From contig JAGXOC010000008.1 of NCBI GenBank assembly GCA_019894665.1, positions 1 to 49,196 on the forward strand: 49,196 nt of DNA, in the 5' to 3' direction. This DNA is from Candidatus Thorarchaeota archaeon. Lineage in GTDB: Archaea > Asgardarchaeota > Thorarchaeia > Thorarchaeales > Thorarchaeaceae. The stretch's first letter is position 1. Every line of letters begins with the position of its first letter. Position numbers and translations under genes: made by a program. This document shows positions 11,738 through 37,530 of the stretch, in pieces. Under the pieces are notes generated by a model, which ran no database searches, was not told the DNA's origin, and worked only from the letters and a program-made list of their open reading frames with translations.

Positions 11738-13510
11738 CTATGCAAAATCAGGATAGCAGTTAGTCATGAGTAGGTTCATGACAGAGCTTCGAATTGCACT
11801 CTCTGAGATAAAGCCAGTTAGTTCTTGTTTACAGATCTTGATGTAGGGAAGCATAGGAAGTTCTTCGTCTGCGATATCAACACCGGGATCATCAACGTTA
11901 ATGGATTCCACCATACTCTGAGGCACTCCCATTGAATCAAGAACAGCAGTCAGTATTTCCATTGCAGGGTCACAGAAGACACAGTGATTGGATTTGTAAA
12001 AGGTAATGCATGTATTTCGACCGCAGTGCAATTCAGGCGCTTCAACCCATAGAGGAAGCATCAGTATAAAGCGAGCTCCTTGAGAAGGATCTCCCTTGAT
12101 TCTATCTTCAACTCGAATCTTGCCACCAATGTTCCTGACAATCCGATCAACGAGCGTAAGTCCCAGGCCACGACCAACAATTTGGTCATCAGGACTTCCA
12201 GTTCTTCTGAAGATATATTCCTTAGCGTTATCAGGTACGCCTGGACCTCGATCAGTAAATTCGATACGAACCATCTTCACAGCATCGATAATCTCCGCAT
12301 TGATCTCAAGCACGACAGTGTCTTTTTCATCAAAGGTCATTGCATTGTGAAGTATATTGAAACACACCTGCTCAAGGTACTGGTGTCCAGCCACCTCGAA
12401 CTTACCCTTCTCCATATTCGACTTCAAATCAAGAGTCTTCCATGGGAAGTCGCCGCGAACCATTGATAGAGAGGAGTGTACATAGTCATTGAAGTCGACC
12501 TTAGTTCTAGTTGGAGGGTTATTAGCTAGTCTGAGTAGAGACCTTAGGTTAGCTACCATCCGCGCAGCTCGTCGGACATTCCAGCTTGACTCGTGTAACA
12601 ATGGACGATATTGTTCAGGGATGTCATTAGAATTTTCTAGGAGCCCAGTGGAGAAGAGGAGACTCTGGTTCACATTGTTGAGGTCATGGGTCATCACCTC
12701 TAAGTAGAGGTTGGCCCGATCGCGTTCATCCTGTTCCCTCGCCTCTGCATTCTTTCTTCGGTCAATATCAAGTGCCATCAAAGCAATAGTTGATGATTGG
12801 TCAGAGTACTCAAGTAGATTCGCAGTCACACTGACCCAAGTTGAGCGACCATCAGCGGTCTTCATTTGCATATCGAAATCTTCGACGGTCTTGCCATTGG
12901 CAGCCTCTGAAAGCATCTGGCCAACAATCTCTTTTCCATCTCCATCTGGGAGAAATGAAGAAAAGTTCCTCCGAAGTAGATCGTCTTCCTCATATCCTAG
13001 TAGGCGCGTTGCCGCTTTATTCACCTGCAGTACATTTCCCATCAAACTTAATGAGAAGTAAGATATTGGCGATGAGTCGAACAATGCTCTGTATCTACTC
13101 TCGGATGCATCAACAGCAGCCTCAAGTTCAACCTGGTGAGTGACGTTCCTCACAATCCCCATAATAGCTGGTTTTCGGGAGAAGATGAAGTCGGATGTGC
13201 TTATCTCAACGTGGACAAGACTTCCATCTTTCTTCAAGAATCGCGCTCTGAAAGCGGGTCTCCCACTTTGACCCCAGTTGAAACCCTCTTGAACCTCCGA
13301 GAACTGATGAACAGTAGTAGGTTCCACTAAGTTGATTATTGGCGTGCCCTCAAGATCTGCAAAGTCATACCCCATCATTTCAAGAAATGCAGGATTTGCC
13401 ATGACGATCCTATCATCATGTAAGATGATAATCCCATCATTCGCCAGCATGACCATTCCGAAGTACTCATCTTGGACGTTAGTGACGTTCTTGTCCTTTT
13501 GACCCTGCAA
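11738..13510 (-). CDS. PAS-PAS-histidine kinase with C-terminal thioredoxin-like domain (CVFC)
   Basis: Two PAS domains; H-box EVMTHDLNN; N-box NILHNAMTF; G-boxes DRGPGVP and GRGLGLTLV; then CITFYKSNHCVFCDPAMEIL...LPYIKICKQELTGF. Confidence 0.9.
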   Translation of the reverse strand: MQGQKDKNVTNVQDEYFGMVMLANDGIIILHDDRIVMANPAFLEMMGYDFADLEGTPIINLVEPTTVHQFSEVQEGFNWGQSGRPAFRARFLKKDGSLVHVEISTSDFIFSRKPAIMGIVRNVTHQVELEAAVDASESRYRALFDSSPISYFSLSLMGNVLQVNKAATRLLGYEEDDLLRRNFSSFLPDGDGKEIVGQMLSEAANGKTVEDFDMQMKTADGRSTWVSVTANLLEYSDQSSTIALMALDIDRRKNAEAREQDERDRANLYLEVMTHDLNNVNQSLLFSTGLLENSNDIPEQYRPLLHESSWNVRRAARMVANLRSLLRLANNPPTRTKVDFNDYVHSSLSMVRGDFPWKTLDLKSNMEKGKFEVAGHQYLEQVCFNILHNAMTFDEKDTVVLEINAEIIDAVKMVRIEFTDRGPGVPDNAKEYIFRRTGSPDDQIVGRGLGLTLVDRIVRNIGGKIRVEDRIKGDPSQGARFILMLPLWVEAPELHCGRNTCITFYKSNHCVFCDPAMEILTAVLDSMGVPQSMVESINVDDPGVDIADEELPMLPYIKICKQELTGFISESAIRSSVMNLLMTNCYPDFA

Positions 13511-18521: not shown

Positions 18522-19244
18522 CTAGGGCTTGCTGATGAAATGCTCAAGCTCGTATGGAATCTGTCTGACTAGTTTTAGATCCCAGTCAACAACTTGAGTT
18601 ACCAGAGGAAAGACCTCAACCCCATTAGCGTGAGCGAAACGAAGAGCATCACCAAATTTGGGATCTGTATTATCATTTGGAGAAAACACCTTGGCATCAG
18701 GTCTCTGAATCACAAAAATAATAGCTGATCGCTTTACTTGATTCTCTTTTAATGCTGCAGCCAGATGTCTAAGATGCCTTGCGCCTCTAGTGGTCGGTGA
18801 GTCTGGAAAGATAGCACGACCCTCCTCAACAAGAGTACATGATTTCACCTCAATGAATGATGCCCCTTTCGTGCTGGTCAGTTTGAAGTCAAAGCGGCCC
18901 TCGAAAGCACGAGGCTCGGGGATCACACTGTCATAATCCTTGAAGAACGGAAGCTCATAGGAACGGAGAAGTCTCTTGATGAATCGATTAGGTAAGTTTG
19001 AGTCTATAGAAACAAGAACTCCATTGTATTCAAGACCAATCATATCGTAGTCGGTCTTTCGGTGAGATGCTTTGTTCTCTCTGAGGAACACTTCATTTCC
19101 AGGAATCATCAGCTCAAGCATTCTCCCAGGATTGGGGATGAATGCTTCCGTGACTTGTCCATCAAGACGTACTCTACCTAGAAACCGGTTTGGTCTGTCT
19201 ATCAGGACAGCCTTTCTGATTCCCGCTGTTTTGGTCATAGTCAT
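18522..19244 (-). CDS. sfsA: SfsA family protein (sugar fermentation stimulation protein homologue)
   Basis: RFLGRVRLDGQVTEAFIPNPGRMLEL...GASFIEVKSCTLVEEGRAIFPDSPTTRGARHLRHL. Confidence 0.93.
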   Translation of the reverse strand: MTMTKTAGIRKAVLIDRPNRFLGRVRLDGQVTEAFIPNPGRMLELMIPGNEVFLRENKASHRKTDYDMIGLEYNGVLVSIDSNLPNRFIKRLLRSYELPFFKDYDSVIPEPRAFEGRFDFKLTSTKGASFIEVKSCTLVEEGRAIFPDSPTTRGARHLRHLAAALKENQVKRSAIIFVIQRPDAKVFSPNDNTDPKFGDALRFAHANGVEVFPLVTQVVDWDLKLVRQIPYELEHFISKP

Positions 19245-19344
19245 TTGTCTCCAATCAACACGTTCGATGATTCACAAGAAAACCTATTACCATTGATGCA
19301 TTAAGGATAATGCTAAAGCGCATTCCTGTGTGCTTTGTTAGGGA

Positions 19345-19599
19345 GTGGCTAGTTTGGCTAAGAAGAAACCTGCTGTAGAACCCCCACTAATAAGGCATGA
19401 TACTGCAAGTAAGTTCATTCACAATTTGTCTCATGATATCACAGGAATCACTCACAACATTATGGGTTATGCGACTCTTCTGGAAGAAGAAAACAACCCT
19501 GATTATATTAAAGGCATAAGCCGGCTTATAATGAAACTTAATGATAAGGTCAAAACTGCAGTTTCAGAAATCGATGACGGGGTTTTGAACGAGAAATAG
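19345..19599 (+). CDS. Small protein resembling a stand-alone DHp/HisKA domain
   Basis: KFIHNLSHDITGITHNIMGYATLLEEENNPDYIKGISRLIMKLNDKV reads like an H-box helix pair with no catalytic domain. Confidence 0.65.
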   Translation: MASLAKKKPAVEPPLIRHDTASKFIHNLSHDITGITHNIMGYATLLEEENNPDYIKGISRLIMKLNDKVKTAVSEIDDGVLNEK

Positions 19600-19605
19600 A
19601 AGTCT

Positions 19606-20706
19606 CTAAAGAAACTCTGTCAGACACAGTTGCTCGGATGCTTCCCGTAACCCAGATACTTTAACACCAACAAGACGGATGGATTTCTCTTGATCTCTGC
19701 GATGATCGAAAATCTCCACAGCCATCCTTTGGAGGACATCGGGGCTATCTGTTTCAACGGGTATGCTCTTACTACGTTGAATTGTTGAATAATCACTAAA
19801 TCGCATCTTGACTGTGACAGTCTTAAATCGAAGTGCTTTCGTTTGGAGTTTCTCTCCAATCCTGCCACACATCTTTCCTAGGGTCTCGTGAAGATATTCA
19901 ATTGCACCGGGTTCAACATCCTCCATGAATGTTCTATCCTTGGAGATTGACTTCCGTACTCTGGGCCCATTATCGATCAAGGGACGCTCATCTATCCCTC
20001 TTGCTCGGTGATAGAGCCAAGTGGACCCACGACCCATTGCAGGCCAAAGCTCAGGAATAGTCATTCGTTGAATCTGTCCGAGGGTCGTGATGTCGAACTT
20101 TTCAAGTCGCTCGGATGTCTTCCGGCCAATTCCATTGATAGCAGTGACTGGAAGTGGTTCAAGGAATTTCAAGACATCTAACGGATCAGGACCAACAACT
20201 GTGATTCCTCGAGGTTTGTTCATCCCAGTTGCAACTTTGGCAACAGACATGCTGGGAGCGGCTCCAATTGAACAAGGCAGTTTAGCATCATGCCAGATTG
20301 AATCTTGGATCCAAGAGGCAAGATTTCTGGGGCTACCAAAGATCTCGACCCCCTCGGTCACCTCGATATATGCTTCATCTATACTCGCTCTTCGTACACG
20401 TCCCCCATCAGCATATTCACGCAGCACTTCCATGAACTCGTCAGCCGCGATGCCATAACTCTCAAACTCGCCATTCACAAAAGTCGCATCAGGACACAAA
20501 CGGTATGCTTGCGAAACGGGCATTCCTGAATGGATACCTTTCGCCCGTGCTTCATAGGAAGCTGCACGAACAACCCCTCGACCGTTTCCCCCTTTTGGAT
20601 CATGGCCTACACACACCGGACGTCCAGCAAGCTCTGGATGGTTTCTATGCTGCTCTACTGATGCGAAAAATGCGTCCATATCTACATGCATAATCCAGCG
20701 TGACAT
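19606..20706 (-). CDS. dinB: Y-family DNA polymerase IV (Dpo4/DinB)
   Basis: MHVDMDAFFASVEQ...PVCVG...SIDEAYIEV...NGIGRKTSERLEKFDI. Confidence 0.96.
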   Translation of the reverse strand: MSRWIMHVDMDAFFASVEQHRNHPELAGRPVCVGHDPKGGNGRGVVRAASYEARAKGIHSGMPVSQAYRLCPDATFVNGEFESYGIAADEFMEVLREYADGGRVRRASIDEAYIEVTEGVEIFGSPRNLASWIQDSIWHDAKLPCSIGAAPSMSVAKVATGMNKPRGITVVGPDPLDVLKFLEPLPVTAINGIGRKTSERLEKFDITTLGQIQRMTIPELWPAMGRGSTWLYHRARGIDERPLIDNGPRVRKSISKDRTFMEDVEPGAIEYLHETLGKMCGRIGEKLQTKALRFKTVTVKMRFSDYSTIQRSKSIPVETDSPDVLQRMAVEIFDHRRDQEKSIRLVGVKVSGLREASEQLCLTEFL

Positions 20707-20908: not shown

Positions 20909-23194
20909 ATGAAAGAGCCAGGAACCGCGACAAACAACGATGTCAGTCAAGAAGAGGAAGCTGTACGGTACAGAGCGTTAGTAGACTCCATGAATGATGG
21001 GTTCGGTATCGTCAATGTAGAGGGTATCTTCACCTACGTAAATTCGCATTTTCATAGAATGCTCGAGTATAGCGAAGAGGACATGATTGGAAAAGCACTA
21101 CTTGATTTTGTAGATGAAAAAAATATGAAAATCATACGTGCGAATATCAGACAACGGACGAAGGGTGAAGCAACACGGTATGAAGTTGAGTGGACAAAAA
21201 GTACTGGCGAGCAAGTTCCTACCATAGTATCGGGAGCACCTATAATTGACAATGGTGAAAATCATCTAGGTTCATTTGCTGTCATTACGGACATTACTGA
21301 ATTAAGGGCATCACAAGTGGCGCTGGAAGAGAGTACAGAGATGATGCGAAGAATATTCGAAGAGTCCCAACTTGGAATTGAATTATTCGACTCAGAAGGA
21401 ATTCTCATTGCGGCGAATCGGGCGGCTTTGAAGATCGGGGGCATCTCAGAAATCAAGGATCTACTAGGTTTTAGTCTCTTTGATGACCCTAATGTACCGA
21501 ATGATATCAAGGCAAGCCTGATCAGAGGAAATCCTGTCAACTATGAGGTCGCTTTCGATTTTGATAAAGTGAAAAAAGAAGGTCTCTATGAAACAAGTCG
21601 TTCAGGTACAATGATCTTGGATGCTTGGGTCACACCATTAGGTCTAGAGAATGGCGATGAACTCAAAGGTTACTTGAGTCAGATGCTAGAGATAACAGAG
21701 GAGCGCCAAACTGAAGTAGCTCTTGAAGACACGGAGAAGCTCTACCAGCTTCTTGCGGAGAATGTAACAGACATTATTTTTATTTCAGACCTAGAGCTTA
21801 CTCTCACGTATATCAGTCCTTCAGCTGAGAATCTTCTTGGTTACACAGTAAAAGAACTAGATAGGAAATCTTTGATTGAGCTAATGGCTCCGGAGTCCGT
21901 GTGGACAGCAATTGAAGCTATGAAGGAGGCTCTAGAAGAAGAGAAAGTTGCAGACCAAACATTGACCAGAGGCGAATCCGCACCCCTTGAAATTCAGCTG
22001 AAGCGTAAAGATGGTTCCTCAGTTTGGACCGAAGTCGCCAGAACTTTCACTCGAGATTCTGAAGGAAAGCCAACAGGTGTATTAGGCGTAGCAAGGAATA
22101 TTGAGGAGAGAAAGGAAAGCCAAAAAACTCTAGTAAAATCAGAAGCAAAGTTTCGTTCTTTGGTAGATCAATCCTTCCAAGGAATACTGATTTTGCAGCA
22201 TGTACCTTTACAAATCAAGTTCTCAAATCCAGCTTTTGCAAGTTTTCTTGAAAGGAGTGTAGAAGAAGTTCTCGAATTCTCTCCAAAGGAAATTCAAGAC
22301 ATGATTCATCCAGATGATTGGGAAATAGCCATGACTCGCTTACAAGAGATTTTGGCAGGAGACCCCCCTACCAAGTTACCAATGGTCATTCGTATTTTCC
22401 AAAAGGACGGAGATATGCAGTGGCTTGAGCTCCAAGGGCATCGAATAGAGTTCGAAGGAGATCATGCTCTCCAAATCGTTGCTCTGAATGTGACTGAACA
22501 ACTTGCCGCTGAGAAATACCTTGAAACACAGAAAGAACGCGCAATGCATCTCATTGACCTGATGTCTCATGATTTCAGAAACCAGCTACAAATCATCCTG
22601 GGAAGCACAATGGTCATGGAGATGAAGCTCAAGGACCCAGATGCACGTCGTCTGCTTGGGCAAATTGTTTCATCAGTTGAAAGATGTCAAAGTATGATAT
22701 CGAAGGTCAAAGTAACTGAGCCCTTGATGTCAGTACCCCTGAGAATCAGAAAACTGAATACAACTATTGCATCGGTTGTAGAATCTTATAGTGACCAACA
22801 CATAGATGTGAAGTTTGAGATTTCGATGAATATTGATAACGCTCTCATAGATGCAGACCAATTCTTGGAACAACTACTAGGTAACTTGATTGAGAACGCT
22901 ATTGAACACAACCCTCGGGAAGAAAGGATAGTATGGATTTCACTCAAAGACAGCGGAGAGGGGTATGAGATTGCTATTGGTGATAATGGACAAGGCATAT
23001 CCAGCTCTCTAAAGACAGCAATCTTCGATGTATCAAGGCGTTACGGAGGAGTAGGACTCCATCAGACAAAACAAATCTGTGACAAGTACAGTGCACGTAT
23101 TGATGCCAGAGATCGTGTAAAGGGTGAATCATCAAAGGGTGCAGAGTTTATAGTATGGCTTCCAAAGACTGCTGAGCAAAGAAGTGGTTCATAG
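20909..23194 (+). CDS. Multi-PAS sensor histidine kinase
   Basis: About four PAS domains; H-box LMSHDFRNQLQIILGS; N-box GNLIENAIEH; G-box GDNGQGI; YGGVGLHQTKQI. Confidence 0.92.
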   Translation: MKEPGTATNNDVSQEEEAVRYRALVDSMNDGFGIVNVEGIFTYVNSHFHRMLEYSEEDMIGKALLDFVDEKNMKIIRANIRQRTKGEATRYEVEWTKSTGEQVPTIVSGAPIIDNGENHLGSFAVITDITELRASQVALEESTEMMRRIFEESQLGIELFDSEGILIAANRAALKIGGISEIKDLLGFSLFDDPNVPNDIKASLIRGNPVNYEVAFDFDKVKKEGLYETSRSGTMILDAWVTPLGLENGDELKGYLSQMLEITEERQTEVALEDTEKLYQLLAENVTDIIFISDLELTLTYISPSAENLLGYTVKELDRKSLIELMAPESVWTAIEAMKEALEEEKVADQTLTRGESAPLEIQLKRKDGSSVWTEVARTFTRDSEGKPTGVLGVARNIEERKESQKTLVKSEAKFRSLVDQSFQGILILQHVPLQIKFSNPAFASFLERSVEEVLEFSPKEIQDMIHPDDWEIAMTRLQEILAGDPPTKLPMVIRIFQKDGDMQWLELQGHRIEFEGDHALQIVALNVTEQLAAEKYLETQKERAMHLIDLMSHDFRNQLQIILGSTMVMEMKLKDPDARRLLGQIVSSVERCQSMISKVKVTEPLMSVPLRIRKLNTTIASVVESYSDQHIDVKFEISMNIDNALIDADQFLEQLLGNLIENAIEHNPREERIVWISLKDSGEGYEIAIGDNGQGISSSLKTAIFDVSRRYGGVGLHQTKQICDKYSARIDARDRVKGESSKGAEFIVWLPKTAEQRSGS

Positions 23195-31019: not shown

Positions 31020-32759
31020 TCAACCTGACATCAGGAGCATGGAAGTGAGTTCCACTCTTAAATCGTCTTCAGACACGAATCCAGCGAGCTTCTTCGTTCC
31101 CAAATGAATAGTGGGCAGAGCAGGCAAATCATCCTCATTTATTCCAGAATCTGGATCATCAACATTGATGAGTCGGATGTTTGAGGGACTAATGCTCATC
31201 TCTGTGAGGACCACTTTTAATGAATCAAGGACAGGACCGCAGAAGACACAATGATCTGATTTGTAGAACATAATGGAGGGAATCTTGAGTTCTTCCTTCC
31301 AAGCAGGCAAGAGTACAATGAACTTGCTTCCCTTAGATGCATCTGAGGAGTCTCTATCCTCAACCCACACTCTTCCACCCAGATGTTCAATATATCGATC
31401 AACAACTGTCAAGCCAAGACCTTTTCCTGCAAGCTGTTCCTCTGGCCCTCCAGTTCTCCTGAAAATCTGGTCCTTGTGTTCATCAGGAATCCCAGGTCCA
31501 TTATCTAGGAACTCAATCCGAACCATGTCGCCATCCTCAGTGACATCGGCTTTGATCTCAAGGTCGACTGTTGTACTGGGATCTTCGCTCGCACTGTAAT
31601 GGATTATGTTAAAGAAAATATACCACATGAAGGCATGTCCAACAACATTGAAAGATTGCTCTGGAATGTTTGATTTAACATTGAGTGTCTTCCACTTGAA
31701 GTCTCGTGTAACCTCTCGAACAGCCTTGTTGAAATGGGGTTGAAGTCGGGTCTGGACCTTATTTGGCGGCGCTTGACCCAAGGATATTAGAACACCCATG
31801 TTGGCGATCATTCTACTAGCACTGCGCACACTCCACGCGGACTCGCTGAGCAATCCTCTGAGACGGTCTGGCAGGTCTATAGAGATGCTGAGATCCTCCA
31901 GCGCAAACAGAACATTCTGATTTGTCATGTTTAGGTCACTGCTCATGACTTCCATGTACAAGTTGGCCCTCTCGCTTTCATGTCTTAGTCGTTGTTCCAC
32001 GCCGCGCCGAGTCGTTATGTCAAATGCAGTAAGCCCAATCTCGTTCACTTTCTCAGTACCTGATGTTAGAGGGCTGGAAGAAATGTTAGCCCAGATGACC
32101 TTCCCATCACCCCGTTTCATCTGTATCTCAAGCCCGCTCACGCTCTTTCCACGCAGAGCTTCTTTTACGATATCTGCTCCAGGGTCATAGAGTGGTTCTG
32201 GATCGGGGAGAAATTCTGAGAGAGACCTCCCGATGAGGTTCTCAGCCTCAACGCCAAGAAGCTCTTCAGCTGCTGCATTGACTTGTTCAATATCCCCATT
32301 TCGATTCAATGTGAAATACGCGACTGGCGACATATCATATAGTGTCGCGAAACGTTTCTCGAGTTCCGTTACAGCAGCTTCAAGCTCCATCCGTGATGAG
32401 ATATTGCGCACTGTGGCGATTATTGCGGGTTTTCCTTCAAGTTTGATTTCGGTTGGAGTGATTTCCACATGAAGTACATTCTTGTCCTTTGATGTTAAGC
32501 GTGTGTTGAATCGTGTTGCATTTTCACCTGTGACAAGAGCTTCTATCATTTCTTGATCTCGTTTGCGGGACATTGAATCGATGAGGTCTTCAAAGGCTGT
32601 ATCCAAGAGGTCGTCTTTCTCATAGCCAAGCATATCGGTGAAGGCGTAATTGGTGAGGATGATGTCTTCATCCTGAATGACCACAAATCCATCACGGACT
32701 ACCTCCATCACCTTGTGTAGCCATGAAGTTTCGTGATTCTCATCTGTCACCGGTGGCAC
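31020..32759 (-). CDS. PAS-PAS-kinase-like protein with C-terminal thioredoxin-like domain (CVFC); degenerate H-box and N-box
   Basis: Paralogue of the 11738-13510 product; EVMSSDLNMTNQ in place of EVMTHDLNNVNQ; FFNIIHYSASED in place of CFNILHNAMTFDE; IMFYKSDHCVFCGPVLDSL. Confidence 0.9.
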   Translation of the reverse strand: MPPVTDENHETSWLHKVMEVVRDGFVVIQDEDIILTNYAFTDMLGYEKDDLLDTAFEDLIDSMSRKRDQEMIEALVTGENATRFNTRLTSKDKNVLHVEITPTEIKLEGKPAIIATVRNISSRMELEAAVTELEKRFATLYDMSPVAYFTLNRNGDIEQVNAAAEELLGVEAENLIGRSLSEFLPDPEPLYDPGADIVKEALRGKSVSGLEIQMKRGDGKVIWANISSSPLTSGTEKVNEIGLTAFDITTRRGVEQRLRHESERANLYMEVMSSDLNMTNQNVLFALEDLSISIDLPDRLRGLLSESAWSVRSASRMIANMGVLISLGQAPPNKVQTRLQPHFNKAVREVTRDFKWKTLNVKSNIPEQSFNVVGHAFMWYIFFNIIHYSASEDPSTTVDLEIKADVTEDGDMVRIEFLDNGPGIPDEHKDQIFRRTGGPEEQLAGKGLGLTVVDRYIEHLGGRVWVEDRDSSDASKGSKFIVLLPAWKEELKIPSIMFYKSDHCVFCGPVLDSLKVVLTEMSISPSNIRLINVDDPDSGINEDDLPALPTIHLGTKKLAGFVSEDDLRVELTSMLLMSG

Positions 32760-36264: not shown

Positions 36265-37530
36265 TCAGAGAACTGGAACTGAAATGAGGAATGCGGCACC
36301 TTGTCTTTCTTTCTCTTCAAGAAGATCAATTGTGCCTCCATATGATTCTACAATCCTCTTGGAAAGATAGAGACCGAGACCCTTTCCTTCACCTTTGGTT
36401 GTCACACCCTTCATGAAGATTCGATGCCTAATGCTTGAATCAATACCAGGTCCGTTATCACGATAGGTGATGATTAGTGTCTTCTCTACCAGTCCTAGGC
36501 GGATTGTCACAACTGCACTCTCACCTACATAGTCAACGGTGTTTCTCAGCAGGTTCTCCAATACTAATGGAAGAAGAATTCCAGGACGAATATCAGCTGA
36601 GCGAATGTCAGGTTCTATTTGGAGACTAATGTTGGCACCGCCACTTGCTTGCTTAGCTCGGTTAGCCATGGTTTGAAGAGTCTCAAGGAAATCATACTCG
36701 CTTGCACGCCCTACAACTGAAAACAATTTGATTACACGAGACATCCTTTCACTAACTGCAAGGGTTGTCGCCATATACGACTCCTTGTCCAGGGGTATTT
36801 TCATTGTTTCATTGAGAAGCTCAATATGACCTCTTACAATTTGCATGTCATTGCCTAGATCGTGCGTAAGTACTGAAGTGTAGACCTCGAGTTCTCGCTG
36901 ACGTTGTTCAAGGAATTTCTTGTGTTCCTCAAGCTGTGTTACATAGTAATTCAGTGACCATGTAAAAATCAGTACAACAAGGGAGAGGGCTGCTTGATCT
37001 ATAATAGGTTCGAGTGCTAACAGAAATTCGATTTCTGGAAGAAAATTGCAATATACAAGTAATGCAGCTGTTTGCACAGAAATGAATAGTGCCTCGAACT
37101 TAGCTGTAAGCCATTGACTACCGAATAGTGCTGCAATTACTGGCCATATGATCAGATTCAGTGCCACTCTCATATCAGTCTGATTGAATTCCACCGATAA
37201 GAAGAGAAAGGGCATCGACGCTAAGCTTAGAGTTGTGATTATTCCTGCAATCACAGCATACTTGGTTCTACTAATTAGGTAGATCAAGAAGAATATCGCT
37301 GTTGTCATGGAGAACAGTGGAATATTGCCGAATAGATTATCAAGGAATAATTGGATAACTGGAAGACCGATGACAATCAGCAACAGTGAAAAAGACAATA
37401 ACCGGGTCTTCATCCTGAGGACATCAGACTGAATAGCGTCTGATGGTTCAATGAGGATTTGGCGAACTCTCTGGAATACAGAATATTCTTCTGAAACGGG
37501 TTCATCCTCTGACATTGCTACAACTTCCAC
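36265..37530 (-). CDS. Membrane-bound sensor histidine kinase
   Basis: N-terminal TM array; H-box VLTHDLGNDMQIVRGHIELL; N-box ENLLRNTVDY; G-boxes DNGPGID and GEGKGLGLYLSK. Confidence 0.93.
   Translation of the reverse strand: MEVVAMSEDEPVSEEYSVFQRVRQILIEPSDAIQSDVLRMKTRLLSFSLLLIVIGLPVIQLFLDNLFGNIPLFSMTTAIFFLIYLISRTKYAVIAGIITTLSLASMPFLFLSVEFNQTDMRVALNLIIWPVIAALFGSQWLTAKFEALFISVQTAALLVYCNFLPEIEFLLALEPIIDQAALSLVVLIFTWSLNYYVTQLEEHKKFLEQRQRELEVYTSVLTHDLGNDMQIVRGHIELLNETMKIPLDKESYMATTLAVSERMSRVIKLFSVVGRASEYDFLETLQTMANRAKQASGGANISLQIEPDIRSADIRPGILLPLVLENLLRNTVDYVGESAVVTIRLGLVEKTLIITYRDNGPGIDSSIRHRIFMKGVTTKGEGKGLGLYLSKRIVESYGGTIDLLEEKERQGAAFLISVPVL

Follow-up and report, generated by a model that had tools for sequence, protein, structure and literature searches.

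Spo0B of the Bacillus phosphorelay is a DHp-type histidine phosphotransferase, incapable of autophosphorylation and equipped with a vestigial CA-like domain. ChpT of Caulobacter is a dimeric DHp-type histidine phosphotransferase that resembles a whole kinase and has a CA-like domain (PMC3433190). In archaea, Galperin et al. (2018) listed ‘HisKA, no HATPase’ proteins, mainly from Archaeoglobi and Methanomicrobia, together with REC-(PAS)n-HisKA regulators, e.g. AF_1472; phosphoacceptor, phosphotransfer or RR-phosphatase roles were suggested for the archaeal CA-less HisKA proteins, and no REC-HisKA regulator of that type had been studied as of 2018 (PMC5847659). Asgard archaeal two-component signalling is otherwise little studied biochemically. 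For stand-alone DHp or HisKA-only proteins, nothing relevant was found in the open-licence literature, which does not by itself prove their absence. The locus described here lies in a 49,196-nucleotide stretch from a MAG of Candidatus Thorarchaeota (hereafter the window) and encodes a protein consisting of a short N-terminus and a DHp domain.

The free DHp protein and its locus

The gene (19354..19599, forward strand) specifies a complete protein of 81 residues, read from a TTG codon and beginning with MAKKKPAVEPP; the assignment draws on the open reading frame, the AlphaFold2 hairpin and the orthologs. The initial annotation had described an 84-residue product at 19345-19599. This frame exists, but the GTG at 19345 is probably not its start, which is very probably TTG 19354, since the leader GGGAGTGGnTAG aligns with the REC-DHp relatives up to the TTG codon and a Shine-Dalgarno-like GGGAG (19341..19345, forward strand) sits 8 nt upstream of this codon and overlaps the GTG. 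The same position reads GGGAG in four of five aligned sequences and GGGCG in the fifth; in genome G002, the frame read from the GTG position runs into a stop (GTG GTT TGA). Further upstream, the conserved element GAAAACCTATTACCA (19278..19292, forward strand), common to the REC-DHp relatives, is a possible promoter candidate. At the other end, only 6 nt separate the stop of the frame from the end of the convergent DinB gene; this leaves no room for a relic CA domain and agrees with the earlier remark that nothing follows the DHp.

The protein is a DHp domain preceded by a short basic N-terminus (∼14 residues ahead of helix 1), and its C-terminus corresponds to the DHp-to-CA transition of full-length Thorarchaeota kinases (the ...ADAG... 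position). The assignment follows from family profiles, as Pfam HisKA (PF00512) alone is marginal, with 17.7 bits (E=0.0037) for the window protein and 26.1 bits for the ortholog in G007 against a gathering cut-off of 26.9 bits. With a profile of 13 orthologs, the matches in full Thorarchaeota kinases coincide precisely with the DHp (E to 5e-17); the profile also recovers the free DHps of genus g7 (E from about 1e-18 to 6e-21), one of which (locus L070) passes the HisKA cut-off with 43.5 bits (E=3.3e-11). The AlphaFold2 model, a monomer covering 80 residues from Ala2, is the two-helix hairpin characteristic of HisKA/DHp domains (pLDDT 87), with helices at 14-45, which includes the H-box, and 49-74. 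A fold search with the hairpin alone returned HK853 and ChpT (4fmt, E 1.8) among de novo helical bundles, all with E>0.4, and a PDB profile search gave spurious repeats in pentatricopeptide proteins as top rows and two histidine kinases at E about 0.01. HisKA was the sole Pfam match of the window protein at E up to 10, with no match to HPt (PF01627). A CA (HATPase_c) domain is absent from the window gene and from all 12 other orthologs, and no degenerate CA-like domain was found past the DHp/CA boundary in the family alignments. No PAS/GAF or other sensor domain was found in the window protein, and the orthologs carry at most a REC.

The H-box FIHxLSHDxxG is invariant in 13/13 orthologs of the genus. 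His27 and Asp28, the presumed phospho-acceptor and its acidic neighbour according to the alignments (codons 19432..19437, forward strand), recur in the g7 free DHps, and with Gly31 and 20 others they make up 23 positions invariant among the 13 orthologs. The usual H-box Pro is missing, as it is from the full kinases of the lineage. The profile matches, the hairpin and the invariant H-box uphold the initial annotation's reading of an isolated DHp with a conserved His; the check that it proposed, conservation of this His and its neighbours in other genomes, gave homologues in which both are invariant (13/13).

Orthologs, every one without CA, occur in 13 of the 16 genomes of the window's genus (g1); the three genomes without a detected ortholog are 83-89% complete. 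A survey of 231 genomes of the phylum gave no match at E≤1e-9 outside the window's family; nearly all genomes compared are MAGs. Named relatives within Candidatus Thorarchaeota include SMTZ1-45. In all 12 other orthologous loci the DHp gene converges with DinB (in the window 19606..20706, reverse strand; Pfam IMS, E=2e-43), a DinB/Pol IV-family polymerase gene that serves as the landmark of the locus in g1 and g7 with no functional tie implied. The divergent upstream neighbour SfsA (18522..19244, reverse strand), like the ABC, P-type ATPase, PAS-kinase and PALP neighbours, is conserved wherever the contig reaches in these 12 loci; SfsA was not detected in loci L053 and L050. Beyond DinB, a PAS-rich histidine kinase (20909..23194, forward strand) with an intact LMSHDFRNQ H-box and HATPase_c is kept in 9/9 other g1 loci that extend there. 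CA-less orthologs and a conserved locus in 12 other genomes speak against a truncated full-length kinase gene, a reading that was rejected.

In other genera the site differs. In g2, g10 (G024), g11 and g13, SfsA adjoins DinB on the side of the DHp gene and there is no DHp; g7 (G021), g8, g9 (G033) and g12 have a full kinase convergent with DinB. In genomes G031 and G062 of g7, a free DHp of 74-95 aa lies between a same-strand kinase gene and the convergent DinB, and a transcript shared by the kinase and the DHp is possible. The upstream kinase frame of G062 starts with a REC. In a DHp tree built on only 81 columns, the free DHps of g7 and the DHps of g1 share one side of a branch (support 91/84, not starred), which is suggestive of a single origin of the CA-less DHp in the two genera.

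Receiver-bearing orthologs and loss of the receiver

Eight of the 13 g1 orthologs (G001, G002, G003, G006, G008, G011, G012 and G015) show the commoner form, REC-DHp, with a length of about 203 aa; the other five (the window genome G000, G007, G005, G009 and G013) lack the REC. The receiver of the eight is a clear Pfam Response_reg (72-74 bits), and alignment shows that it keeps the Asp pair, the phospho-Asp, the Thr and the Lys. Mapped onto a tree of seven neighbouring proteins, presence or absence of the REC requires three changes, and the RECs of the REC-DHp orthologs form one clade (100/100). The natural reading is therefore that the receiver was lost within the genus by in-frame deletion on at least three separate occasions; gain is disfavoured because the same domain would have to be inserted repeatedly at one place.

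The junctions look like deletion scars. In the window (19354..19368, forward strand), start codon and Ala run straight into the KKK linker, which in relatives comes after the receiver as GIAKKK or NVSKKK. In G007, MLDD is joined to KTKAAP, and in G005, G009 and G013 start-(E/K)T(R/P) is joined to the linker. Start codon and DHp are kept, and the upstream leader is still recognisable in every junction comparison, most weakly for G007; for the deletion in the window, the evidence comes from a single MAG. Relocation of the receiver within the window genome, of which ∼10% is missing, was considered and set aside: only three REC matches occur (contigs C55, C74 and C222). In the REC tree, the C55 REC and a C74-type protein of G015 (L118) fall outside the REC-DHp clade, and the C222 REC, absent from that tree, is plainly different in sequence from the REC-DHp receivers.

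Phosphoryl transfer and its possible partners

It is tempting to propose, with a probability slightly above one half, that the window protein is a kinase-less phosphoryl-transfer module cut down to its His domain, which acts like Spo0B, ChpT or HPt and derives from a CA-less REC-DHp protein by in-frame receiver deletion. The absence of CA makes self-phosphorylation impossible, and a role in phosphoryl transfer is suggested by the invariant phospho-His, the acidic H+1 residue and the intact receiver of the orthologs. The free DHp would form a homodimer with a four-helix bundle, and His27 would take a phosphoryl group from a phosphorylated receiver or, less likely, from a kinase CA domain in trans; the His-bound group would then probably pass to a receiver. 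REC-DHp relatives could perform Asp-to-His transfer inside one protein; after REC loss, transfer would necessarily proceed via one of the few other receivers of the genome. Among the three roles offered by the initial annotation (phosphorelay hub, trans-acting substrate of CA domains and dimerisation competitor), the hub appears to fit best, given the eight orthologs in which a receiver with a full set of phosphorylation residues is fused to the DHp. CrdS depends on the acid at H+1 for its kinase activity and on the Asn at H+4 (the Thr/Asn position) for its phosphatase activity, each residue being dispensable for the other activity (PMC3510030). The H+4 residue of the DHp family is Gly in 13/13 orthologs (Gly31 in the window) and not Thr/Asn, so that the phosphatase role suggested by Galperin et al. 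is disfavoured; it is lowered and no further, since some full-length kinases of the Thorarchaeota lineage also have Gly at H+4, and this residue would be no proof of a role in transfer only.

Possible donors and receivers are few. The four kinase-like proteins announced earlier for the window all have HATPase_c (11738-13510, 20909-23194, 31020-32759 and 36265-37530); three are plausible kinases and the other appears to be a conserved pseudokinase. In this PAS histidine-kinase-like protein (31020-32759, reverse strand), the phospho-His is replaced by Ser or Asn (Ser in the window copy) and the N-box Asn by Tyr or Phe in 10/10 genus genomes examined, with 61-85% identity of the orthologs to the window copy. 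Its C-terminal region bears a CxxC-type motif (SDHCVFCGP) that resembles thioredoxin-like domains. A paralogue with 41% identity (11738-13510, reverse strand) keeps its H-box (MTHDLNN) and N-box and also has a CxxC in its tail (NHCVFCDP); the two may be an active/inactive kinase couple. The nearest candidate phosphodonor is possibly the PAS-rich kinase beyond DinB. The window genome (90% complete) has three REC matches versus about eight full HATPase kinases, and in the other genus members examined REC matches number 5-14. The three, in C55 (a REC-PAS-DHp-CA kinase), C74 (REC-GAF-PAS) and C222 (148 aa, essentially a single REC), are candidate partners of the free DHp.

A conserved H-box would also be expected of a heterodimerising regulator or a kinase substrate. 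As a regulator, the free DHp would pair with the DHps of full-length kinases such as that of C55 and block or redirect them, the His being minor. DHps are dimerisation domains, a bare DHp is a minimal dominant-negative, and the nearest full-length DHp of the same genome is 31% identical with a similar helix sequence. A pure competitor, however, would need neither the phospho-His, the Asp at H+1 and the surrounding face, invariant in 13/13, nor the full REC phosphorylation set kept by the REC-DHp orthologs, and this explanation seems unlikely. Still more doubtful is a split kinase, in which a separate enzyme phosphorylates the free DHp from ATP and the DHp then phosphorylates a receiver. Such kinases are known in bacteria (PMC3591291), the family retains the acidic H+1 residue on which kinase-type phosphorylation depends in CrdS (PMC3510030), and the g7 free DHp sits behind a same-strand kinase gene; against this, the eight REC-DHp orthologs suggest Asp as the input, and no intact stand-alone CA protein was found in the genome. 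The window kinase devoid of its own His (31020-32759) has a broken N-box and is thus no obvious donor. Two frames with CA only, C222:61045-61353 (L042, 102 aa) and C99:21911-22153 (L044, 80 aa), lack the N-box part, were rejected as free CA partners and are probably fragments or decayed kinases. One of the two lies directly upstream of a small GTPase gene.

Decay is the other alternative: the DHp became dispensable after REC loss and is on its way out. In its favour, a single MAG documents the loss in the window lineage, the small gene ranks with the fastest-evolving of its neighbourhood, and three genus genomes show no ortholog. But these genomes are incomplete, leader and start codon are retained, and the window copy holds 23/23 invariant residues on a branch of 0.17, compared with 0.15-0.29 in REC-bearing sisters. 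For the window, dN/dS is unusable owing to saturated synonymous sites; among G005, G009 and G013, whose REC loss predates their divergence, the DHp shows a dN/dS of 0.05-0.15 (NG86, 62 codons), and the domain is under purifying selection after that older loss. Decay is thus very improbable. Repeated receiver loss with retention of the His domain argues that function resides in this domain. A broader reading has a kinase lineage pared stepwise from REC-PAS-DHp-CA through REC-DHp to DHp, with the receiver dropped repeatedly, the His domain under selection and a dedicated single-domain DHp phosphotransferase as outcome; we give it somewhat less than an even chance. If true, Asgard archaea would have their own counterpart of HPt in this protein, a natural phosphotransfer protein of the DHp type and of very small size.

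Comparison with known systems

CA-less HisKA proteins and REC-(PAS)n-HisKA regulators are already known in archaea (PMC5847659); new are a DHp that stands bare, the repeated loss of its receiver and the conservation of the locus. Like the archaeal ‘HisKA, no HATPase’ class, the window family has a HisKA/DHp with a conserved His and no HATPase, in some members with an N-terminal REC; unlike members of that class, which carry PAS/GAF or other sensors, it has no PAS at all, and the REC is gone in five genomes (PMC5847659). The Thorarchaeota hybrid kinases REC-PAS-DHp-CA, e.g. the C55 kinase of the same genome, have a homologous DHp and an archaeal-type REC homologous to those of the REC-DHp proteins; the window family differs by the absence of sensor and CA, and its DHps form a separate clade (100/99). 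A genus in which the receiver was apparently deleted at least three times and the His domain retained is a natural experiment, and 80-residue constructs together with matched REC-bearing orthologs allow a test of the bare DHp as a phosphotransferase. As small single-domain His carriers, HPt proteins offer a possible working analogy, with a monomeric four-helix fold in place of the two-helix DHp hairpin. The closest working analogues are probably Spo0B and ChpT. Both are of the DHp type, but each has a CA-like domain and the window protein none; the fold match to ChpT is not significant, and the Thorarchaeota protein is a DHp only.
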